64,000 bases of DNA from Pseudomonadota bacterium (GTDB taxonomy: Bacteria > Pseudomonadota > Alphaproteobacteria > Dongiales > Dongiaceae): the NCBI GenBank assembly GCA_021792365.1, contig JAJYUT010000003.1:496001-560000 (forward strand), written 5' to 3'. The notes below the pieces were generated by a model. The model did not search any database, was not told where the DNA came from, and saw only the letters and a list, made by a program, of their open reading frames with translations. The position numbers and the translations under genes are program-made. Positions 33,812 through 58,589 of this stretch are shown in pieces (position 1 is the first letter of the stretch; the number at the start of each line of letters is the position of its first letter).

Positions 33812-34252
33812 ATGAGCGACAAACTTTCCGACGCGGTGACCAAGGCATGGGTTCGCCTGGTGCGCGCACGCCATACGGTGGTGAGCGCCGTCGAGGCTGA
33901 ATGCAAAGCGGCAGGCGCCTTGCCCATGGAATGGTATGACGTGCTGTGGGACCTGGAACGGCACGAAGAGGGCGTGCGGCCGTTCGAGCTGGAGCAGCGC
34001 CTGCTGTTCGCGCAGTACAACCTGTCACGCCTGATCGATCGACTGGTGGAAGCGGGATTGGTGAAGCGCATGGCGTGCCCGACCGACAAGCGCGGGCAGA
34101 TGCTGTTCATCACCGAACCCGGCAAGAAGCAGCGCAAGGCCAGCTGGCCGCACTACGCCCGCGCCGTGAACAGGCATTTGGGCGACAAGCTCACCGAAGC
34201 GGAGACGGAGAAGCTGGCGGCGCTGCTGGGCAAGCTGATCGAGCCCAGTTGA
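33812..34252 (+). CDS. MarR family transcriptional regulator
   Basis: A 146-residue winged-helix regulator: YDVLWDLERHEEGVRPFELE, NLSRLIDRLVEAGLVKRMAC, PTDKRGQMLFITEPGKK (the wing, with the D-x-R element). ATG 33812 (MSDKLSDAV) gives normal MarR length and leaves all three dyads outside the gene; in-frame ATGs at 33776 and 33749 lie inside dyads and are less likely. It faces away from doxX-GST and probably represses both itself and that unit. Confidence 0.88.
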   Translation: MSDKLSDAVTKAWVRLVRARHTVVSAVEAECKAAGALPMEWYDVLWDLERHEEGVRPFELEQRLLFAQYNLSRLIDRLVEAGLVKRMACPTDKRGQMLFITEPGKKQRKASWPHYARAVNRHLGDKLTEAETEKLAALLGKLIEPS

Positions 34253-34284
34253 CGACTGGGTGGGTTGAGGATGATGCTTTGGCT

Positions 34285-35298
34285 ATGATGGAATCTGAAC
34301 CTCCTCCTAATCAGCCCGAATCAGGAGCCGGCATTCTAGATGTCGTCACCGGCATGACCATACCGGAGCCGGTCAAGAAGAGCATTCTCAAAGCACTGGG
34401 GCGGTTAATACATGGCGTGGTCGACATACCAGTCGCTTGGCTCGAAGGTGTTTCTGACGGCATTAGAGCAGAGTCCGAAGCCAGACGGCTCGTCACAATC
34501 GCTGCAGCGGAGGCAGCGGCAAAGCAGATTGGTGAAGAGCCCCAGCTGGTTCGTCGAGCAATCGCGAGATTCGGAGCGAAGATCGTCACGCAACAGAAGA
34601 ATATCGAGCAGGTTAGTCGTCTCGCAATCGAATACGTATCGTCGCAGGCACAAATCAGTGCACCCAATGGAGAGGTTTCCGACGATTGGCTGACGCGTTT
34701 TGCAGCTGTTGCTGAAAACGCCACAACGCTTGATATGCAAACCCACTACGGTCGCATATTGGGTGGTGAGTTGTTGCGCCCGGGCTCCTATGATCCAGCG
34801 ACGCTCAACGTCCTATCTTTACTTTCGCAGCAGGTTGCGAGGGATTTCGAACAGCTTTGTCGGATGTCGATGGTGATCCAAGGCCGGAGCATGGTCATGC
34901 TGAGCGTGAGTGCTCTTGACAATCCGCACACGACCAACAACGCAATTTCAGACGATAACACAAAGGGGGAGAACCTGCGCCCCATCGGGCTGAACTTAGC
35001 TGCGCTGTTGGGGCTCCGATCAGCCGGTCTACTGGCGAGCCTTCCGGATGAGGAGTACCCCGATCTTACAGAGTATTTTGATAACAGGCTGATTCCGTAT
35101 GCAGGGTCGACGATCCGGTTCGACGGCTCCGAACAGATCAAGGTGCACGGAAAGATCCTTTGGACGAATGTGATGAGTCTGACCAGAGCGGGCAATGAGC
35201 TACGGTCGATTCTCTCGCTCGACCCACACGAGCCCTACACAAGCGCCCTGCGGGATATGATGGCTCGCGCTGGCGTTAGGCTGGTGATCGAAACCTAG
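34285..35298 (+). CDS. DUF2806 family protein, low-GC accessory gene
   Basis: A 337-residue protein. The C-terminal two-thirds matches the DUF2806 pattern: QQKNIEQVSRLAIEYVSSQ, DDWLTRFAAVAENATTLDMQ, YGRILGGELLRPGSYDPATL, then DFEQLCRMSMVI. Family function is unknown. The gene is visibly poorer in G+C than its surroundings (29 G+C of 60 in 34261-34320, 31 of 60 in 34921-34980) with different codon choice, pointing to horizontal transfer as a single-gene island. The start is uncertain: ATG 34285, or TTG 34279, which has GAGG 8 nt upstream. No mobile-element end was found. Confidence 0.75.
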   Translation: MMESEPPPNQPESGAGILDVVTGMTIPEPVKKSILKALGRLIHGVVDIPVAWLEGVSDGIRAESEARRLVTIAAAEAAAKQIGEEPQLVRRAIARFGAKIVTQQKNIEQVSRLAIEYVSSQAQISAPNGEVSDDWLTRFAAVAENATTLDMQTHYGRILGGELLRPGSYDPATLNVLSLLSQQVARDFEQLCRMSMVIQGRSMVMLSVSALDNPHTTNNAISDDNTKGENLRPIGLNLAALLGLRSAGLLASLPDEEYPDLTEYFDNRLIPYAGSTIRFDGSEQIKVHGKILWTNVMSLTRAGNELRSILSLDPHEPYTSALRDMMARAGVRLVIET

Positions 35299-35321
35299 CG
35301 ATCAGAATCGAACATGGCCTG

Positions 35322-38727: not shown

Positions 38728-41460
<2,733 letters not shown>

Positions 41461-41547
41461 GCCTTCGAAGCTTCTCCCAATGCCACCCCGGGCAGTCGCC
41501 AGCACGGCGCGATCTCGAAGGCCGTTGGGTGCGTGGCTTGAGCTTGC

Positions 41548-41575
41548 GCTGACCTGAAGCGAGCCCATCTATAAT
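41548..41575 (+). promoter_or_regulatory. Candidate creA promoter
   Basis: A perfect -10 box TATAAT (41570-41575) with a weak -35 GCTGAC (41548-41553) at 16 bp, 23 bp ahead of the creA start codon. Confidence 0.6.
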
Positions 41576-41597
41576 ACGGACAACCTCCGAGGCTTCC

Positions 41598-42059
41598 ATG
41601 CGCAAGCTTTTCGCGGCGTGCCTTCTTGCTTCGATCACTGCCTTCCCTGCTTTCGCCCAGGACCGGGTCGGCGAGGTCAGCACCACGTTCCGCGTGATGG
41701 GGCCGAACGACAAGGTGGTGATCGACCGGTTCGACGATCCCAAGGTCGAGAATGCGAGCTGCTATGTCAGCCGTGCGGAGACTGGCGGGCTCAAGGGCTG
41801 GGTCGGGTTGGCGGAGGATCCGAGCCGCTTCTCCATCGCCTGCCGCGCGACCGGGCCGGTCAAGATCGTCGGCGAGATCAACCGCACCAGGAAAGGCGAG
41901 GTTGTGTTCAGCGAGGACACCTCGATCCTGTTCAAGGAGATGCGGGTCAGCCGCTTCTACGACGCCGACAAGAACGTGCTGCTCTACCTCGTCTGGTCGA
42001 CCAAGCTGATCGACGGCTCTCCGTATAACAGCGTGACGGCGATCCCGATCACGGAGTGA
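41598..42059 (+). CDS. creA: CreA family secreted protein
   Basis: A 153-residue protein with a signal peptide (MRKLFAACLLASITAFPAFA, then QDRVGEVSTTFR). The rest is the CreA family pattern VGEVSTTFRVMGPNDKVVID, then DDPKVENASCYVSRA, GLAEDPSRFSIACRATG and VLLYLVWSTKLIDGSPYNS. It has a possible disulfide between its two cysteines. CreA is a periplasmic protein of unknown role. It is a single gene with a good -10 box. Confidence 0.88.
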   Translation: MRKLFAACLLASITAFPAFAQDRVGEVSTTFRVMGPNDKVVIDRFDDPKVENASCYVSRAETGGLKGWVGLAEDPSRFSIACRATGPVKIVGEINRTRKGEVVFSEDTSILFKEMRVSRFYDADKNVLLYLVWSTKLIDGSPYNSVTAIPITE

Positions 42060-42087
42060 CGACTATAACATTTGATGCCTGAAGACC

Positions 42088-42117
42088 GCCTCTGAGGCCG
42101 CTGCCTCTGAGGCCGCT
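42088..42117. repeat. 15-bp tandem duplication
   Basis: GCCTCTGAGGCCGCT occurs twice in direct contact (42088-42102, 42103-42117) in the gap between creA and the UbiA locus. Each unit contains the dyad GCCTCTGAGGC, so the pair can fold as two hairpins. Confidence 0.9.
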
Positions 42118-42280
42118 GCGCCCCTTCGGCCTGCAATCCCGCCGGCATTATTGCCTGGTAGGGAACAGCAGCAAAACGGCAACATCCTATCGGATCGCTG
42201 GAAGTGCATTGGTTGCATGGGCAACTGATGCTAGCATCCTCTCGGCTGGGTGAAGCGGCCTAAGCGATAGTGGCGTTCCG

Positions 42281-43717
42281 ATGGAGAATGCCTCCAATAC
42301 CCCAGAAACCTTGGCTGTCGATCTGGACGGAACATTGGTCCGCTCCGATCTGGCATACGAGGCATTTTGGTCTGCCTTCGCGAGGAACTGGACGGTTCCT
42401 TTCGTCGCCTTATTGCGTTTGGCGGGAGGCCGTCCCGCGCTGAAGTGGCGGCTGGCCGCACTCAGCAGCGTCAATGTCGCCACGTTGCCGTACGACAATG
42501 ACGTGCTGCAATACGTTCAAGGCTGGCGTAAGGACGGTGGGCGCGCCGCCTTGGTCAGCGCAACGCATCAGGTATTCGTCGAGAAGATAGCGAACCATCT
42601 CGGCGTATTCGATGAGGCGCACGGAACCTCTGGAGGGGCCGATCTCAAGGGCGCTCGGAGGGCAGCGCTTCTGGCCGAAAAATTTGGGGAAAAGCGCTTT
42701 GCGTATCTTGGCCATTCGCAGGCCGACCTGCCGGTGTGGGAAAAGGCATCAAGGGCAATTACGGTGCGTGCCACACCTGCACTGCGAGCGCGCGTGGCCG
42801 GCGTCAATGCAACCGTAGAGCATCTATCCACGACGCGCGCGTCTCCAATCCCCTATCTCGAAGCGCTCCGGCCGCACCAGTGGCTGAAGAACGTGCTGGT
42901 TTTCGTGCCAATGCTGGTAGCGCACCAGTTCACGCTCGCAACGTTCGTCCAGTCCCTTTGCGCCTTCATATCCTTCTGTCTGATAGCGTCGAGCGTCTAT
43001 TTGCTTAACGACTTGCTGGATCTCTCTGCCGACCGCGTCCACGCGCGCAAGCGCAACCGTCCCCTCGCCTCGGGCGCTATCCCGATCGTTCATGGAACCT
43101 TTTATGCGCCGTTGCTATTTATCGGCGGCTTGGCCATCGGTCTTTCCGTAGGAGGTCAATTCGCCGCCGTTATGATGGCCTATTATGTGACTGCGATCGC
43201 GTATTCCATCGACTTCAAGCGGCGCCTCATCATTGATATCTGCGTGCTGGCGGGGCTCTATGCCTTGCGCATCGTTGCCGGTGCAGTGGCCACACAGATC
43301 TCATTGTCGGTCTGGATCCTGGCTTTCTCGATCTTCCTGTTCTATTCGCTCGCGTCGATCAAACGGCAGGCGGAACTGGTCGATGGCGTGGCTTCGGGTC
43401 AAGTCACCATCCATGGCCGCGGCTACCGGCCGCGCGACGTATCCTTGATCTCGAGCATGGCCGTGGCGTCCGGATATGTGTCTGTTCTCGTGATGGCCCT
43501 GTACGTGAACTCGCCTGCCGTTCTCGAGCTCTATAGCCAGCCTCAGGCACTCTGGGGAATCTGCCTGGTCCTGCTGTACTGGATCAGCCGAATGGTGATG
43601 GTCACGCATCGCGGCAGAATGAACGACGACCCGATCGTGTATGCTGTAAGGGACCGGATCAGTCGAATCTGCCTGCTGCTCGTCGTCGTCATCGTGGCAG
43701 GAGCGACGCTGCTATGA
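42281..43717 (+). CDS. HAD-UbiA prenyltransferase fusion
   Basis: A 478-residue protein. Residues about 1-185 form a HAD phosphatase-like domain (VDLDGTLVRSD, LVSATHQVF, YLGHSQADLPVWEKA). Residues about 190-478 form a UbiA intramembrane prenyltransferase with YLLNDLLDLSADRVHARKRN, then RPLASG (the first Asp-rich motif) and DFKRRLIIDI (second), and about eight membrane segments. The best known relatives attach phosphoribose to decaprenyl phosphate (DPPR synthase, with HAD phosphatase acting next). Lower G+C than neighbours. It is followed by GtrA at an ATGA overlap, so the operon continues. Confidence 0.85.
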   Translation: MENASNTPETLAVDLDGTLVRSDLAYEAFWSAFARNWTVPFVALLRLAGGRPALKWRLAALSSVNVATLPYDNDVLQYVQGWRKDGGRAALVSATHQVFVEKIANHLGVFDEAHGTSGGADLKGARRAALLAEKFGEKRFAYLGHSQADLPVWEKASRAITVRATPALRARVAGVNATVEHLSTTRASPIPYLEALRPHQWLKNVLVFVPMLVAHQFTLATFVQSLCAFISFCLIASSVYLLNDLLDLSADRVHARKRNRPLASGAIPIVHGTFYAPLLFIGGLAIGLSVGGQFAAVMMAYYVTAIAYSIDFKRRLIIDICVLAGLYALRIVAGAVATQISLSVWILAFSIFLFYSLASIKRQAELVDGVASGQVTIHGRGYRPRDVSLISSMAVASGYVSVLVMALYVNSPAVLELYSQPQALWGICLVLLYWISRMVMVTHRGRMNDDPIVYAVRDRISRICLLLVVVIVAGATLL

Positions 43718-44145
43718 GCTCTCGCACCTTGGCCCTTCGCTACACTACTATCGCGACAGCGGCCACCACTCTGAACCTCCTGCTGCAAGCGCTTATCTCC
43801 TGGATGTACGAGGGCCCGCTGGAGGTCGAAGCATCCATGGTGATCGCCACCGGCCTCGTGCTGCCGTTGAAGTACTCGGTCGAGAAGCGGATGATCTTCC
43901 AGTTCCAGCCGGATTCGCTGCTGCACGACGCGAAACTGTTCTACCTGTATACGCTTGTCAGCGTTTTCACCGTGCTCATATTCTGGTCCACGGAATACGC
44001 CTTTCACCTGATCTTCCGCGACGAGGCGATGCGCTATGTCGGCGGCGCCATCGGGCTGGCGATGAGCTTCTACACGAAATACCGGCTGGACAGACACTTC
44101 GTCTTTGTCCGGACAGGCCGCCCGGCGGGATGCAACAATACATGA
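43714..44145 (+). CDS. GtrA-like membrane protein
   Basis: A 143-residue protein with four membrane segments and the GtrA ending KYRLDRHFVFVRT. GtrA-like proteins are thought to flip or hand over polyprenyl-phosphate sugars across the membrane. Its start overlaps the UbiA stop (ATGA) and its stop overlaps the next start, as expected for a single operon. With the HAD-UbiA gene it points to a polyprenyl-phosphate sugar donor that is moved to the periplasmic side. Confidence 0.8.
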   Translation: MSSRTLALRYTTIATAATTLNLLLQALISWMYEGPLEVEASMVIATGLVLPLKYSVEKRMIFQFQPDSLLHDAKLFYLYTLVSVFTVLIFWSTEYAFHLIFRDEAMRYVGGAIGLAMSFYTKYRLDRHFVFVRTGRPAGCNNT

Positions 44146-45323
44146 CGCCGGCCAGGCGGCACGAGCTGCTCTATTTCGCGCTGGCCACCGCGATACCGGC
44201 ACTGTTCTTTCTGACGCTGCCATGGAGCGTCGACTACACAAGCCGGGAGCATACGGGCTATTTCTTCAACGCCGATGTCTGGCGGGTCTATCATCACGTC
44301 ATCGACTCCGGCGAGGTGAGCCACTACCGAGACAAGGTTCATCCCTACTTCTCTCTCTTCGCCGTCACGGCGGCGAAGACCGGCAAGCTCCTTGGAACGG
44401 AAGGGGGCGAGTTTCTCGCCTATCGCAGCATATTCGGAACTGCCGGAATATTCCTGTTCTGGCTCTTCATCTATCGGTCCACGTCCGTAATCAACGCGTT
44501 CGCTTCGCTCGCCTTGCTGATGTCCACAATGACGGTGAGAGTGTGGAGCATCGTGCCGGAGAGCTTCATTTTCGGCTTCTTCACGTTGATGCTCGGCCTG
44601 AACCTTGCGCGGGCACAACGAAGCTGCGCCGCGACCCTGCTCGTCACGCTGTCTGGAACCACCACCAACTGCTTCCTTGGTATCCTATACACACTGCAGA
44701 AGATCAGAGCGCTCGATTGGAGAAGAACGATCTTCATCGTCGCGTTGGCCGTGCTGCTGCTCTCCAGCCTCCAGAAGAGCCTGTACCCGACTTCAGTGCA
44801 CTTCTTCGATCTCTTTGCGCTCAAGGAAGAACAGCGCTATGTGAATCGATCGCTATCGCAGGTGCCTTTCCGAGCCTTCGACTTTGTGTATTCGGGGTTC
44901 GTGCTCCCTCTCCCCGAATCCGTCGACAGCCCCCTCAGCACCGAAAAGCTGTGGTCGAGATTCGTCGAGACCTACGATGCCGGGTATGACAACCGCCAGA
45001 CGCTGACCATTCTCGCAGGGCTGCTGGCGATCACGGCTTTCCTGATCGCGGCGCTCGTCGCCTTCATCAGGTCGGCCGCCTGGCACGACGCCGGCGCCCT
45101 GGTTGCGGGTTTCATCGTGTTCGAGTTCATCCTGCACCTGAGCTACGGCCGAGAGCCCTTCCTTTACTCGTATCAGTTCCTTCCATTCCTGATCATCTTC
45201 GTTGCGCTTTACCTGCCGGGCAGGAGCGTGCGGCCCCTGTTGCTCGCGTTTCTGGCCATCTGCCTGCAGGAAGCGAATTTCGGACAGTTCTACAGGTTCC
45301 AGCAGATGCTGATGCCGACGTGA
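44142..45323 (+). CDS. Multispanning membrane protein, possible GT-C glycosyltransferase
   Basis: About 393 residues with nine or more hydrophobic segments and no recognised family. After the first membrane helix comes SVDYTSREHTGYFF and VYHHVIDSGEVSHYRDKVHPYFSLF; this acidic, aromatic first loop is reminiscent of the catalytic loop of GT-C enzymes, which use polyprenyl-phosphate sugars. A start at ATG 44142 gives an ATGA overlap with gtrA; ATG 44130 is an alternative. The position after UbiA and GtrA supports a transferase that uses the flipped donor. Function is inferred only. Confidence 0.6.
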   Translation: MTPARRHELLYFALATAIPALFFLTLPWSVDYTSREHTGYFFNADVWRVYHHVIDSGEVSHYRDKVHPYFSLFAVTAAKTGKLLGTEGGEFLAYRSIFGTAGIFLFWLFIYRSTSVINAFASLALLMSTMTVRVWSIVPESFIFGFFTLMLGLNLARAQRSCAATLLVTLSGTTTNCFLGILYTLQKIRALDWRRTIFIVALAVLLLSSLQKSLYPTSVHFFDLFALKEEQRYVNRSLSQVPFRAFDFVYSGFVLPLPESVDSPLSTEKLWSRFVETYDAGYDNRQTLTILAGLLAITAFLIAALVAFIRSAAWHDAGALVAGFIVFEFILHLSYGREPFLYSYQFLPFLIIFVALYLPGRSVRPLLLAFLAICLQEANFGQFYRFQQMLMPT

Positions 45324-45390
45324 CGCCTGGACGCGGGCGGTTGAGACGACGCAATCTGCCGGAGCCTTGGTCTCTTGGAAGGCTGAAGCC

Positions 45391-47544
45391 ATGTCCTTTT
45401 TTGAGATGCATGACGCCTTGTACTATTCCTATTACGTCCTGATTGCCGGCGTGCTTGTCAGCTTCGCCTGCTCCAAGGTCGTGGGATATCGATGGGCTTT
45501 GGCCAGCGTGGCGATCCTCTTGGCGCTGGGCGGCGTCGCGTTCGCGGCACGCACTTACCTTGCGGACCGCATCGGAGATGACCGCCTGATCGTTCTGGAA
45601 GCAATGCAGGATCGCCCCGAAGATCCGTGGCCGCGCGGAACTGGTCATGTTCCCCTCGGCCCGCTCGGGTCAAGCGAGATGGAGAAAGGATATCTCGAAC
45701 CGGGCGGCAGCTTCAGCCCGGCTGCCGGGACCTTCGGCGTTTCCTTCTGGGTCGTCGATCGCAGCGGTAAGCTGATCGCGACCAGCGATGACATTCCGCT
45801 CGATGAAACGCAGGCTCGCTACGTCCTGTCGCCGGTTGGCGAGACGGGGATTTCCGTCGAAACCGCCTTTTACACGGCGACCTGGACGATGAAAGGCGGC
45901 GCTGGTTTCGAGCTTGCCATCGCACCCCGTCTTCCGGCCGACCGGCACCTGCAGATTGCGATTCGCGGCGTCGGCCCCGCCGGCGGTGCGTTGACGACGA
46001 TCGAGCGACGCGGCGACCGTCTCCGCGTCGGCAACGGCTGGACCCTCGGCCCCCTGGGTCCCGATGTGCAGGTCGCCTATTTCGGCCAGGAGGGCGAGCC
46101 GGGCTGGAGGCAGCCCTCCCCTTCCGAAGCGACCGTGGTGCAAAGCGCCTCCGGTTGGGCGCATGTGCGGCTTGCACTGCCGGACGAGCCTTTGACGCTC
46201 TCGTTGACCCGGGACGTCCCGATTGCCTCTGACCGATTGCCGCGCCAGAGCCGGCCGAAGCTGGAGGGCCTGGACGCGCGCTTTACAGCGGCCCTCTCGT
46301 CACAGATCACGACGCTACAGCTGGGTTTGGTGGGCAACCAGACGAGACCAGGGGAGCCTCTCAACTACCCCCTGGAATGGCTCCGCGACGGCGCCTATGT
46401 CGTCGTCGCATTGGCGCGCGCCGGGCAGACGGATTTGGCTGAGCAGCTTGCGCTCGAGTTCGCGCGAAAGGACTTCTTCGGCGGCTTCGGTGCGGAGGGG
46501 GATGCTCCTGGACTGGCGCTCTGGGCGCTGGCGGAAACCTCCGCATTGCTGCGCCGGGGCGCGTTTGATCGGGCGATCTGGCCGCATGTCCAGCGAAAGG
46601 CCGAACTCATCCTGCTCATGTCGCGTGCAACATCTGACGTCCGGCACGAGTTTTCCGGGCCAGCCAGTCCGCAGAATCTGAAACGACGACGGGAGCTCAC
46701 GCTGGTGGCAGAGCCTGCCCGCGACGGGCTGATCGATGGTCGGATGGATTGGCACCGCCCGATCTTCTATATCAATGCAGTCAGCTATGCCGGATTGATC
46801 GGCGCCGCGAGAATCGCGGATAATTTGGAGGAAGCGGCCGCGGCCGCAGCCTGGAGACGCGCCGCGGCAGACCTTCGCCAAGCCTGGATCGCCGCATTCA
46901 GCGATCCCGATTGGGCCGAGAGTGCTGATAACGATCGTACCGCGATTTCCGGACTTTGGCCGTCCGACATCGCGCCAGTTGAGCCATTCGCCAAGCTGAT
47001 GGAGCAGCGATGGCAAGAGCAAGAACCGGAGTGGAATACGCCGTCCTACAGACCTCGATGGACCTATTTCCCCGTCGCCGAAGCGCATCAATGGCTTCGC
47101 CTCCGTCGTCCTGACAGGGTTGCGACCATCCTGGATCACCTGTGGCAACATCAGCCCGTCCCCGGCCTCTATACGCTCTGGGAAGGCCGTGGAGAGCCGG
47201 GCAAGCTAAGCCGGTGGAAGGCGTTTCGTGGTTGGGTTGAACCGCCCAACGTCAACCCGCACTACTGGTCCGCGAGCGAAGTGCTGCTCCTGCAGCTCGC
47301 CATGCTGGCCGAGACGCAAGGCGGGCCAGACTCGGAGGAACTCGTCATCGGCGGCGGCATCCCGGCCGAGTGGCTATCCAGCGAGATCGCGGTATCCGGC
47401 ATCGGCACGACCCGCGGCTTCGTCGATTGGACCTGGAATGGCGCCGAGGTATCGGTCACCGTTCATGGCGACACGCTACCCGTCAGGCTTGGCCCCTCGT
47501 TTCCGAGCTCCGCCAGATTGAACGTTGCGTACTCCGCAGATTGA
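45391..47544 (+). CDS. Membrane-anchored six-hairpin glycosidase-like protein
   Basis: A 717-residue protein with two N-terminal membrane segments (residues about 10-60), a beta-rich region to about 280, then an alpha/alpha-barrel. In it LNYPLEWLRDGAYVVVALAR, GAEGDAPGLALWALAE and WNTPSYRPRWTYFPVAEAHQ, with RGWVEPPNVNPHYWSASEVLLLQ, resemble GH15-like and other six-hairpin glycosidases. GGAAGG lies 8 nt before ATG 45391. It is 67 bp behind the membrane protein. A periplasmic glycoside hydrolase or transglycosylase for the glycan made by the upstream genes is likely. Family not established. Confidence 0.65.
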   Translation: MSFFEMHDALYYSYYVLIAGVLVSFACSKVVGYRWALASVAILLALGGVAFAARTYLADRIGDDRLIVLEAMQDRPEDPWPRGTGHVPLGPLGSSEMEKGYLEPGGSFSPAAGTFGVSFWVVDRSGKLIATSDDIPLDETQARYVLSPVGETGISVETAFYTATWTMKGGAGFELAIAPRLPADRHLQIAIRGVGPAGGALTTIERRGDRLRVGNGWTLGPLGPDVQVAYFGQEGEPGWRQPSPSEATVVQSASGWAHVRLALPDEPLTLSLTRDVPIASDRLPRQSRPKLEGLDARFTAALSSQITTLQLGLVGNQTRPGEPLNYPLEWLRDGAYVVVALARAGQTDLAEQLALEFARKDFFGGFGAEGDAPGLALWALAETSALLRRGAFDRAIWPHVQRKAELILLMSRATSDVRHEFSGPASPQNLKRRRELTLVAEPARDGLIDGRMDWHRPIFYINAVSYAGLIGAARIADNLEEAAAAAAWRRAAADLRQAWIAAFSDPDWAESADNDRTAISGLWPSDIAPVEPFAKLMEQRWQEQEPEWNTPSYRPRWTYFPVAEAHQWLRLRRPDRVATILDHLWQHQPVPGLYTLWEGRGEPGKLSRWKAFRGWVEPPNVNPHYWSASEVLLLQLAMLAETQGGPDSEELVIGGGIPAEWLSSEIAVSGIGTTRGFVDWTWNGAEVSVTVHGDTLPVRLGPSFPSSARLNVAYSAD

Positions 47545-47605
47545 TAAAGGCGATCGACAGATTGCACGCAACACGGATTGCACAGCGCAACCAGCGCCTA
47601 GCGCC

Positions 47606-50617
<3,012 letters not shown>

Positions 50618-54850: not shown

Positions 54851-54929
54851 CGGCGGCTCCCTCGCCGGATAGTGACCAGGGAACCAGATCAGGGCATGTG
54901 GGGTTTAACGCGCCGTGGGAGGCGTGCCT

Positions 54930-55853
54930 ATGTCCGAGATACCTGTCAGCCCGTTCACAGGCGGCGCAATTGCATCGCGATTCAGCGGACGCTCCGTCCA
55001 AGCCACCGCGCCGAGGCTGCTCTGCCTCGTAGCGGTCGCGAGATCGGGCACAAACCACCTCTGCTCGGTCCTTTCGAGGCTCTCCGAGCTCGATGTTCGC
55101 CACGAGATCTTCAACAAGACGTGGTCCCAGGAGATGCGGCCGGATGAGCTTTCGGAACTGTCGCGCCGATCCGGCAGGAATTTTTCCGCTTCGTGCGAAG
55201 ATCCGGTGGCCGTCAATACCATCCGAACGCGGCCAGGCCTGGTCATGGATTGCCTGACGGATCTGATGGAGCCTCAGAAGAGGCTCGTCATTTTCAAGGT
55301 CTTCCGCCTGCAGCTATCGGTCCGGCAGGTTCGGAACGCGATCCTCAAGCGCCCCGATACCATCGTCGTCTTCCTGCGCCGGAGACCCATCGACACCTTC
55401 ATTTCGCTGCGCAAGGCTCTTCGTCTCGAGCACTGGCACAGCCGCGACACGACCAATTTCAAGATCAACATCGACGCCGATGACTTCATCGGCTGGTGGG
55501 GCCGCACCAGCGCGTGGTTCCGCAAGGTCGAGGCCGCGTGCTGGGCGATGGACAAGCCGTTCCACCGGCTGCGCTACGAGGATGACATCGACGCGCCGCA
55601 GGAGCGCACGCTCGACCGGTTCCGCGAGATCCTGGCGAGCCAGGGCGTCACGGGCCTAACGGTCACGGCCGACCGGCAGCACCGCGAGCATAAGCGGCAG
55701 GATCGGAACAGGGAATTGAGCGACCGGGTTGCGAACTGGCCGGAGTTCCAGCGACGCCTGAGCGACAATGGATTTCTGGAGAAGGCCTTCCTACCGTTCC
55801 CGACCTATGAGCCCACGTCATGGGACCGGTTCCGCCACCGCCTGAGCGCTTGA
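54930..55853 (+). CDS. Sulfotransferase-like protein (Stf0 type)
   Basis: A 307-residue protein with a PAPS-type loop LLCLVAVARSGTNHLCSVLS and a 3'-phosphate motif IVVFLRRRPIDTFISLRKAL. The stretch ARSGTNHLCSVLSRL and the end FPTYEPTSWDRFRHRLS are of the Stf0-type trehalose/glycolipid sulfotransferases. GGGAGG lies 8 nt before ATG 54930. It lies next to a Wzx-type flippase and another sulfotransferase (57708), so the substrate may be a surface glycan or glycolipid. Confidence 0.75.
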   Translation: MSEIPVSPFTGGAIASRFSGRSVQATAPRLLCLVAVARSGTNHLCSVLSRLSELDVRHEIFNKTWSQEMRPDELSELSRRSGRNFSASCEDPVAVNTIRTRPGLVMDCLTDLMEPQKRLVIFKVFRLQLSVRQVRNAILKRPDTIVVFLRRRPIDTFISLRKALRLEHWHSRDTTNFKINIDADDFIGWWGRTSAWFRKVEAACWAMDKPFHRLRYEDDIDAPQERTLDRFREILASQGVTGLTVTADRQHREHKRQDRNRELSDRVANWPEFQRRLSDNGFLEKAFLPFPTYEPTSWDRFRHRLSA

Positions 55854-55959
55854 CCAATCGGGTCGTCGGCAACTCAGTACAAGTTGCTCTTCGCGTCACG
55901 CCCAACGGAGTGACAATGGCGAAGTTGTCTCCGTGCATGCCGCACTGCCATTGCGGTAT

Positions 55960-57480
55960 TCAATGGCCCGGTCCCCTGCGACGGAGCGCCTTCAGTCGGT
56001 GGTGAACGAGTTTGCGCGCATCCGCCGAGAACGCATAGAGCAGCAGCGTGTAGATCGGCAGCCCGGCCGCTACGCAGATGAGAATCGGCACCAGCACCGT
56101 CGTGAAGTCGGCTCGGATGGAGGACAGGAGCAGCCACACCAATGCCCCCATGATCAGGGATGCCAGGAAAGGTGCCGTCATTACGGAAAGCATGTGCCGC
56201 GGCGTCACGCCAGAGGCGCGCCGTACCATCCACAGCTGGAATGGCAGCGCGAGATAGCCCCGCAGCACCAGGGCCCAGGCGACCGCAATAAGGCCGAATG
56301 GCGCGGCGGCTGCGACGAACACAGTGGTCGAGATCACCTGCGCGATCGCCAACGTACGCAGGGTGTTCGCCTTGCCTAGCGTCATCAGCAATGGGCCAGT
56401 GAAACTGTTCGCCACATATGGAATTGCCATTAGCGCGAAGATCTGCACGATCTGGCCCGACACTGCCCATTTGTCGCCGAAGATCGCCGGCACAGCGTCG
56501 GGCGCCAACACGCCGAACCCGATATATGCCGGAAGCGCCAGCATGGCGCTCTTCGACGCCAGTCCGCGATAGGCCTTAACCAGCTCTTCGTGGTCGCTCT
56601 GTAGCCGCGCGAGGGTCTGGTTTGCCACCATCGCGAACGGACTGGTCGTGCCCGTCAGGATGAGATCCGTGGTTCGCCGGGCGATGCGGTTGATACCGAC
56701 CGCGGCGGTGTCGATCATCGTGCCGAGAACGATGTCCGTGGCCCTGCGAGACAGGCGGTTGACGACCTGCGTCAGAGCGATGTTGAAGCCGAAGTGCCAG
56801 ATGGCGCGGACCTGCTCCCATGAAACATTGCCACCTGGCATCCACCTGTAGGCCTGCCAGGACATCAGCGTGTTGACCGCCTCGGTGACGAAGCGCTGCA
56901 CCACCAGACTCCATAGTCCCCATCCAGCGAACGCCGCCGCCACGGCAGCCGCGCCGCCCACGCTGTGAGCAACGGCAGAGCGGATCGCCAGGGTCTTGTG
57001 GCCGAACTCGCGCAGACGCAGCGACAGGTGCGTCGCGCCCAGCGCGGCGAGCGGTAGAGCAAAGCCGAGCGCCTGCAGCGGCGCCGTCACCGAAGGCTGG
57101 CCGATCAGGCCCGTGAGCAAGGGCGCTAGCCCGAGCAGGACGAGCGCCAGCATCGTGGACATCGCCATATTGGTCCAGAAAACCGTGTCGGCCAGGGCCC
57201 TCGTCACCCGCTTCGCCCGCACAATGTTCTGAACCATGCCGCTGATCGCGACGGCACGGCCGATCTCGGCGAATGCCTGCGCAATGGCGAAGGCACCGAT
57301 TTCGGCAGGCGACAGGAGGCGGGCTAGAATGACGAAGACAATGAAAGCGAACACCTGGTCGGAGGCGACGCGAAGGAGAGTCCATCCGACAGAGCGGCGG
57401 GTTTTCCTCCTCAGGGTGGCGTCGTATCTTCTGGGATTATCATCCTGTGGTTCCTCCGGATTCTTCAGGTCGGTAACCAT
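55960..57480 (-). CDS. Wzx/PST-type polysaccharide flippase
   Basis: A 506-residue inner-membrane protein with about twelve to fourteen hydrophobic segments, MOP superfamily (oligosaccharide flippase). The opening TLLRVASDQVFAFIVFVILA, then RLLSPAEIGAFAIAQAF, is typical; a C-terminal polar tail follows. It would move lipid-linked repeat units of a polysaccharide across the inner membrane. GGGGGTGG precedes the ATG. No Wzy polymerase or glycosyltransferase is adjacent in this window. Confidence 0.85.
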   Translation of the reverse strand: MVTDLKNPEEPQDDNPRRYDATLRRKTRRSVGWTLLRVASDQVFAFIVFVILARLLSPAEIGAFAIAQAFAEIGRAVAISGMVQNIVRAKRVTRALADTVFWTNMAMSTMLALVLLGLAPLLTGLIGQPSVTAPLQALGFALPLAALGATHLSLRLREFGHKTLAIRSAVAHSVGGAAAVAAAFAGWGLWSLVVQRFVTEAVNTLMSWQAYRWMPGGNVSWEQVRAIWHFGFNIALTQVVNRLSRRATDIVLGTMIDTAAVGINRIARRTTDLILTGTTSPFAMVANQTLARLQSDHEELVKAYRGLASKSAMLALPAYIGFGVLAPDAVPAIFGDKWAVSGQIVQIFALMAIPYVANSFTGPLLMTLGKANTLRTLAIAQVISTTVFVAAAAPFGLIAVAWALVLRGYLALPFQLWMVRRASGVTPRHMLSVMTAPFLASLIMGALVWLLLSSIRADFTTVLVPILICVAAGLPIYTLLLYAFSADARKLVHHRLKALRRRGPGH

Positions 57481-57707
57481 CCACCCCCACCTATGCCGTG
57501 ATAGCAGATCGCGCCTGTGCCCAAAGAGCAGCGCGTGAAACAGAACCGAAGCGCCGGCTAGGCCGCAATGCGCTGCACGTGCTGCGGTTCCTTGTCGCCC
57601 ACTTTTCCTGCTCAGATAAAGAAAATGACAAGTGATCGTGCGAAAGCTAGGATTGGCCGAACTGCCATTGCAGAGCCAGTGCGCTGCATTCGAGTGGGAG
57701 AAGTGCC

Positions 57708-58589
57708 ATGCTTCGAGCGCTTTTCACTCTGAGCAATGAGCATGTGTTGAGGCCGATCGACCTGAAATTGGTGCGGCGGTCACGCGTCCCGTATTCTCCA
57801 GACGACAGCTCGCCTGCAAAACGCGTCGCATTCTTCCATCCGGCGAAGTGCGGCGGTACCTCGGTCCGGGATCTGCTCGCCAAGGCTTTCGGCTGGCCAG
57901 GGAGATTGGATCCGAGTTGCGCAGACAAAGCTGCCCACATCGTCGGCATTCCGTCGGTAGAGCTGCGCGAAGGGATGCTTGCGTATCTGGTGCAGCGCCA
58001 CGATGTACCCTTCATCAGCGGTCACTTCTGCTTCAGTCGCCGTGTCTTCGCGGGGCGGGAGGATGAGTTCGATTTCATTACCATCCTCCGGAACCCGCTC
58101 GAGAGGTTCCTGTCGCATTACTATTTCGCCAGGTTCAAGCCGAATCCAGAACGGTTTCCTACGGACCACCTGGAGTTACCGCAGTACCTGTCGACCACCC
58201 GAGCGAGGGTGTGGGCAACGACCTACACCAGGATCTTCGTAGGCGAGATCGAGGCGGCAAGGGCCCTGAACGAACGCGGCACCTGCGACGACATGCGGAA
58301 GGCGGTGGCCGACGCAATCGACAATCTCGGCAGATTCGCCATTGTTGGCACGCTGGAGCGTCTGAAGGACCTCGAAGCAGGGATCCAGCAGCGCTACGGG
58401 ATCAAGAGCGCGATCCCGCACCACCGCAAGAGTCCGCGGCCGGGTTATCTCAAATTCGCCGAGCAGCCGCGCGAGGTGCAGGAGCGGCTTCTGGAAATGT
58501 GCGAAGCGGATATGATCATCTATGAGCGGTTCGCGCCGAAGCCGCAAACCTTGCCCAGCCTCGAGGCCGTTCCCCGCGTAGCGCAGTGA
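57708..58589 (+). CDS. Sulfotransferase family 2 domain protein
   Basis: A 293-residue protein of the heparan-sulfate 2-O-sulfotransferase-like family 2: PAPS loop VAFFHPAKCGGTSVRDLLAK and the 3'-phosphate element FDFITILRNPLERFLSHYYF. The family also includes bacterial enzymes that sulfate polysaccharides. It is divergent from the flippase gene with a 227-bp shared upstream region. The pair of distinct sulfotransferases on either side of the flippase is unusual. Confidence 0.82.
   Translation: MLRALFTLSNEHVLRPIDLKLVRRSRVPYSPDDSSPAKRVAFFHPAKCGGTSVRDLLAKAFGWPGRLDPSCADKAAHIVGIPSVELREGMLAYLVQRHDVPFISGHFCFSRRVFAGREDEFDFITILRNPLERFLSHYYFARFKPNPERFPTDHLELPQYLSTTRARVWATTYTRIFVGEIEAARALNERGTCDDMRKAVADAIDNLGRFAIVGTLERLKDLEAGIQQRYGIKSAIPHHRKSPRPGYLKFAEQPREVQERLLEMCEADMIIYERFAPKPQTLPSLEAVPRVAQ

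Follow-up and report, generated by a model that had tools for sequence, protein, structure and literature searches.

The stretch analyzed here is a 64-kb window from a genome of the alphaproteobacterial family Dongiaceae, and the system in question is a set of four co-directional genes on its forward strand, gene 1 to gene 4, extending over 42281–47544 (position numbers are those of the window unless another contig is named). They encode a HAD-UbiA fusion protein (gene 1; 42281..43717, +), a GtrA-family protein (gene 2; 43714..44145, +), an orphan polytopic protein of 393 aa without a family match (gene 3; 44142..45323, +) and a membrane-anchored GH15-like (six-hairpin) protein of 717 aa (gene 4; 45391..47544, +). 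ATGA overlaps at 43714 and 44142 join gene 1 to gene 2 and gene 2 to gene 3, and 67 bp separate the end of gene 3 (45323) from the start of gene 4 (45391); the gene positions, both overlaps and the gap had been reported by an earlier sequence-only reading of the window, and all are seen in the DNA. A second in-frame ATG of gene 3 lies at 44130 and, if used, extends the protein to 397 aa. The operon is real; systems of its kind were described in 2024, and genes 3 and 4 are its unfamiliar components. Its G+C content is 0.58–0.59 in genes 1–3 and 0.64 in gene 4, compared to 0.654 in the window; the visibly lower G+C claimed by the same reading thus holds for genes 1–3 but hardly for gene 4. Neither promoter-like sites (3, against 1.5 in shuffles) nor terminator-like sites (3, against 4.4) clearly exceed shuffled DNA, and an Rfam search of 41000–48500 produced zero matches.

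Predicted donor synthase and flippase

Gene 1 matches NCBIfam NF006088 with 601 bits (cut-off 351) and exceeds the Pfam cut-offs for both UbiA (72 bits) and HAD (37 bits, E-value 8e-9), while its score against the decaprenyl-phosphate phosphoribosyltransferase model, 153 bits, stays under the cut-off of 207. The nucleophile loop of the HAD part is intact (DLDGT at 14–18). In the system of Kelly et al. 2024 (PMC11127046), a HAD-UbiA protein makes prenyl-phosphate-ribofuranose from phosphoribosyl pyrophosphate (PRPP), a small transporter is proposed as the flippase, and a GT-C enzyme adds the sugar. For ORF15 of that study a product of m/z 435 is reported, corresponding to farnesyl phosphate plus ribose, and m/z 513 for its 5′-phosphorylated form. 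The residues mutated in ORF15 of that study (D18; N247, D248, D251, D255; R366, E369) recur in gene 1 as D14; N243, D244, D247, D251; R362, E365, that is, at a constant offset of −4; this is a correspondence of motifs and residue numbers rather than of aligned sequences. By homology and conserved catalytic residues, gene 1 is predicted to encode a polyprenyl-phosphate phosphoribosyltransferase (PPPRS) with an N-terminal phosphoribose phosphatase (PRP).

Gene 2 scores 132 bits against the NCBIfam GtrA model NF037976 (cut-off 50) and 20.4 bits against Pfam GtrA, the latter below the cut-off of 26.1; it is a likely flippase for a lipid-linked pentose. GtrA is named once in the main text of PMC11127046, for glucosylation, and the words "glycosidase" and "hydrolase" do not occur in that main text. 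Our literature search retrieved no paper joining ribofuranose, UbiA, GtrA and a glycoside hydrolase in an operon; among the literature naming GT136, glycosyltransfer by that family is, judging by the listed titles, the subject of PMC11127046 only.

With the three-component system of Citrobacter youngae O1/O2 (PMC11127046) the operon shares a HAD-UbiA protein with the same catalytic residues, a small flippase and a polytopic protein. The O1 set, which serves ribofuranose, includes no epimerase, as in the operon here; for xylofuranose an epimerase of the short-chain dehydrogenase/reductase (SDR) type is added, and DprE1/DprE2 relatives are present where arabinofuranose occurs (PMC11127046). The two systems differ in the transporter, four-helix and MATE/EmrE-like in C. 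youngae and GtrA here, in the extra GH15-like gene here, and in the flanks, which are housekeeping genes here and an O-antigen locus there; gene 3 also belongs to no described family, an assignment that involves no comparison to the ORF12 (GT136) sequence. The mycobacterial decaprenyl-phosphate arabinose (DPA) pathway (Rv3806c, Rv3807c, DprE1/E2, Rv3789; PMC11127046) follows the same logic from PRPP to a polyprenyl-phosphate pentose, but here the phosphatase is fused and of HAD type, DprE1/E2 are absent from the operon, and undecaprenyl rather than decaprenyl is the expected lipid. The polyprenyl-phosphate pentose route that the sequence-only reading had proposed on the model of mycobacterial arabinan synthesis is supported; its suggestion of a new pathway is not, because the combination of HAD-UbiA, flippase and GT-C enzyme had already been characterized in 2024 (PMC11127046).

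Genes 3 and 4, the unfamiliar parts

The gene 3 protein has 10 hydrophobic segments, with a 64-residue loop after the first and a 75-residue loop after the sixth. Searches against Pfam, NCBIfam, PDB sequences and PHROGs gave chance-level rows only (E-values 0.1–0.5). Exact peptide patterns revealed one relative in genome contigs, from a Methylotenera metagenome-assembled genome (MAG), 42% identical and truncated by the contig start; in the block SHYR-KVHPYFSL, which follows the first hydrophobic segment, 12 of 13 residues are identical between the two proteins. Conserved residues of gene 3 include D45, H61, R63, K65 and H67. Gene 3 relatives were found in 0 of 60 relatives and, with a profile built from the two sequences, in none of the other 397 genomes of our phylum sample; plasmids, phages and viral contigs yielded no confirmed relative, a single match at E 2 being at chance level, and peptide-pattern searches matching 13 and 321 stretches contained zero true relatives. 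We know of no described member of the GT-C family proposed below for gene 3.

Two hydrophobic segments lie at the N-terminus of the gene 4 protein, and a third, weak one spans 458–476. The whole protein has no match in Pfam and none among PDB sequences. Its likeness to GH15 enzymes consists of part matches arranged in the order of the catalytic domain: Pfam GH15 at about 323–353, around EWLRDGAY (329), and TIGR01577 (oligosaccharide amylase) at 460–507. Both remain far under the curated cut-offs, with an E-value of 0.11 and 11.8 bits for GH15 (cut-off 22), and E-values of 2e-6 for the whole protein and 3.4e-7 for its C-terminal part for TIGR01577 (29.3 bits, cut-off 820.7). The membrane-anchored glycosidase-like gene of the sequence-only reading is borne out by the two N-terminal segments and the GH15-type part matches, but at scores well short of family membership. 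The GH15 acid motif, WEE, reads IDG in gene 4 (448–450), and E630 in WSASE could act as the base; activity is uncertain. An AlphaFold model from the single sequence is too poor for a fold search (predicted local distance difference test, pLDDT, 41). Searches for gene 4 relatives in plasmids, in viral contigs, in the rest of the phylum sample (397 genomes) and in the Methylotenera MAG found none, apart from one chance match at E 4; phages were not searched.

Related loci and the proposed route

Among 398 evenly sampled genomes of the phylum, 48 (that of the window among them) contain a gene 1 match at 1e-60 or better, and the other 47 neighborhoods were compared by tblastn, counting genes on either strand within 7 kb centre to centre; some of these stretches end at contig ends (e.g., L063). 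A DprE1 relative lies near 38 of the 47, GtrA near 16 and an SMR-like gene near 10, with L093 a borderline miss (DprE1 at 7.0 kb). In all nine loci with the highest scores (46–59% identity) the order is UbiA-GtrA-DprE1-DprE2, in one direction and with equal spacing, and the tenth-best, L060, reads UbiA-DprE1-DprE2 with GtrA further away. On the UbiA tree the presence of DprE1 is scattered, with 13 changes, at least 8 of them forced, which is not fewer than under shuffled labels (195 of 500 as low). Two loci, L084 (with a PMT_2 protein) and L083, combine UbiA, an SMR-like gene and a polytopic protein, with no DprE1 relative within 7 kb. The HAD-UbiA loci L067, L078, L091, L093 (borderline) and L094 have neither DprE1 within that distance nor an identified transferase, and in L091, L093, L094 and L096 the HAD motif reads DLEGA.

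We also inspected 8 of 93 matching records from named plasmids, judging DprE1 on the stretch fetched. Two Salipiger plasmids and one Ruegeria plasmid carry UbiA-GtrA-DprE1-DprE2; in these Rhodobacterales operons the first two genes, their order and their spacing are the same as here, and DprE1 and DprE2 stand where the present operon has genes 3 and 4. Cereibacter pORIO1 reads UbiA-GtrA-unclassified polytopic-DprE1-DprE2, its polytopic gene occupying the third place as gene 3 does. A Leisingera plasmid has UbiA-GtrA-glycosyltransferase, and a Jannaschia plasmid UbiA followed by an unclassified polytopic gene. On two Rhodovulum plasmids UbiA precedes a GT39/PMT-type gene as part of a polysaccharide locus, and the sequence fetched there contains no DprE1 match. 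Five of nine polytopic proteins from such loci have no Pfam match at 0.01; should they be GT-C enzymes, the lack of such a match would carry little weight. The Methylotenera MAG, whose completeness is not known, has no DprE1 ortholog (best match 5e-5) and contains one HAD-UbiA match (43%). Near a contig end, this match is preceded by a small gene that resembles EamA/SMR at Pfam scores under the cut-off.

A second pentofuranose locus lies in the same genome as the window, on contig C9 (924118–929856; L018, L019), and comprises UbiA, a DprE1-like flavin adenine dinucleotide protein, an SDR, a 537 aa polytopic protein and GtrA. The HAD part of this UbiA is retained without the DxD loop; that it should be kept and yet motif-less is odd. 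Its DprE1 is the sole ortholog found in the genome, two other matches being 27% identical over part of the query, and no DprE1 match was found on the window's own contig, C28. The absence of a DprE1/DprE2-like epimerase noted by the sequence-only reading thus applies to the operon and its contig, but given the DprE1/DprE2-like pair on C9 not to the cell. We dropped the notion that the C9 system depends on the HAD domain of gene 1, because HAD-less UbiA proteins near DprE1 are found in family members too.

The reading we favor, and consider rather probable, is that the operon encodes a three-component system for adding pentofuranose in the periplasm, its product most likely being undecaprenyl-phosphate-ribofuranose, transferred by gene 3. 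Undecaprenyl phosphate would receive phosphoribose from PRPP through the UbiA part of gene 1, and the HAD part of gene 1 would strip the 5′-phosphate, yielding the lipid-linked ribofuranose; GtrA (gene 2) would flip this to the periplasm, and gene 3, as a GT-C-type enzyme, would move the pentose onto a surface glycan. The anchored gene 4 protein might then trim or check the same decorated glycan, which is the weakest step and a guess from gene position. The added sugar is most likely ribofuranose rather than arabinofuranose, because the operon carries no epimerase. We prefer this reading because gene 1 has the seven ORF15 residues at a constant offset (PMC11127046), the UbiA-GtrA order is common to the best-scoring relatives, loci exist that pair UbiA with a polytopic or GT39/PMT-type gene and show no DprE1 within 7 kb (L084, L083) or in the stretch fetched (the Rhodovulum plasmids), Cereibacter pORIO1 has a polytopic gene in third place, albeit followed by DprE1/DprE2, and the MAG in which gene 3 has its relative encodes HAD-UbiA, next to a small EamA/SMR-like gene, and no DprE1 ortholog.

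Several results weigh against it. The two-row gene 3 profile, compared with four polytopic proteins of such loci, gave probabilities <1%, the same as a UbiA control, and an AlphaFold model computed for gene 3 from the two-row alignment reaches a mean pLDDT of 35, too poor for a fold search. With 10 segments the second long loop would be cytoplasmic, unless an eleventh is counted (parity assigned by hand). The Methylotenera MAG carries its gene 3 relative on one contig and HAD-UbiA on another, and no overlap was found between the ends of the two, which indicates co-occurrence in the genome, not linkage. The four genes were found together nowhere else in what was searched, the MAG coming nearest, an outcome that the sequence-only reading had itself named as telling against its proposal. 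Finally, the C9 DprE1/DprE2-like pair could turn the donor into arabinose.

With no homology to GT-C enzymes and so poor a model, the GT-C-like class that had been given to gene 3 was not confirmed; we infer its role as a GT-C-type pentofuranosyltransferase from position, topology and weak co-occurrence. The same lack of homology, together with an ambiguous topology, would suit a polymerase, ligase or transporter of the glycan, with the transferase encoded elsewhere. However, gene 3 stands third, beside a flippase and a donor synthase, in a place that other loci fill with a polytopic gene or an annotated transferase, and the long polar loop after its first segment contains a strongly conserved block, so we regard such a function as rather improbable. 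A further alternative keeps the machinery and changes the sugar: undecaprenyl-phosphate-ribofuranose would be epimerized by the C9 DprE1/DprE2-like pair and gene 3 would be a D-arabinosyltransferase, adding D-arabinofuranose. The single DprE1 ortholog of this genome does have an adjoining SDR, the best-scoring gene 1 relatives sit beside DprE1/DprE2, and a shared lipid pool is conceivable, since the C9 UbiA lost its HAD motif. Nevertheless, UbiA, GtrA and a polytopic protein are all encoded at C9 itself; in family members L098, L099 and L100 a HAD-less UbiA lies about 5 kb from DprE1, so that such a system may do without the gene 1 phosphatase (no search for separate phosphatases was made), and the MAG encoding the gene 3 relative has no DprE1 ortholog. 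Arabinose thus appears possible but unlikely.

Beyond ribofuranose addition as such, we tentatively speculate, with more doubt than conviction, that the operon is a mobile four-part "write and trim" module, in which gene 3 founds a new family of GT-C ribofuranosyltransferases, gene 4 is a periplasmic glycosidase editing the ribosylated glycan, and a second, arabinose-type system draws on the same lipid-ribose pool. If the favored reading is right, the pathway described in 2024 would gain a candidate for a new transferase family along with a hydrolase partner, and a module without the epimerase pair of its relatives would add ribose, not arabinose. With a pair of lipid-pentose systems in one genome, the sharing of lipid-linked ribose between them becomes directly testable.

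Probable insertion site and wider window

The four genes occupy a probably acquired segment of 5.55 kb (42061..47611) between creA (41598..42059, +; Pfam CreA, 5e-53) and an M20 peptidase gene (47606..48892, −; Pfam Peptidase_M20; 91–92% identity in two congeners). The right flank of the segment was found in two congeners, G002 and G003, where the site was compared. In G002, DNA homology to the window ends at 42060 and restarts at 47612 with 9 bp in between, so that creA adjoins the M20 gene; in G003, 762 bp of unrelated DNA separate them. Both congeners keep the gene order parvulin-like, secA, creA, M20 peptidase and next right-flank gene without the four genes (the first two names are ones we presume). 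A third congener (68% complete) has no M20 match at 1e-100, and for five further family members with an M20 relative, secA and creA were not found in the stretches of about 18 kb fetched. The two 300-base stretches compared at the insertion ends contain no direct repeats of at least 10 bp. Given the other DNA in G003 (L122), the creA–M20 site is perhaps insertion-prone.

A tree built from 62 UbiA domains places gene 1 in a pair with L052 (support 98/90), within a 12-row set (support 96/88) that includes seven Rhodobacterales plasmid loci, and away from the C9 UbiA of its own genome. Since two congeners lack the 5.55 kb block at this site, its acquisition as a unit is likely; the transfer suspected by the sequence-only reading is made probable by the site comparison together with G+C and the UbiA tree. 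Ancestral presence followed by loss in the two congeners would be compatible with so small a comparison and with the other DNA in G003, but the lower G+C of genes 1–3, the grouping of gene 1 with Rhodobacterales-plasmid sequences and not with UbiA proteins of this family, and the absence of gene 3 from the 60 relatives make loss highly unlikely.

Elsewhere in the window, about 7 kb from the operon, 54915–58589 may represent a glycan locus: it holds a Wzx-like polysaccharide flippase gene (55960–57480, −), a gene whose weak likeness to sulfotransferases stays under the Pfam cut-off, and one gene without a Pfam match; sulfotransferase genes also occur near HAD-UbiA on the Salipiger and Leisingera plasmids. 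The lowest G+C of the window in 1-kb steps (0.568) falls in 34000–35300, a stretch encoding a DUF2806 protein.

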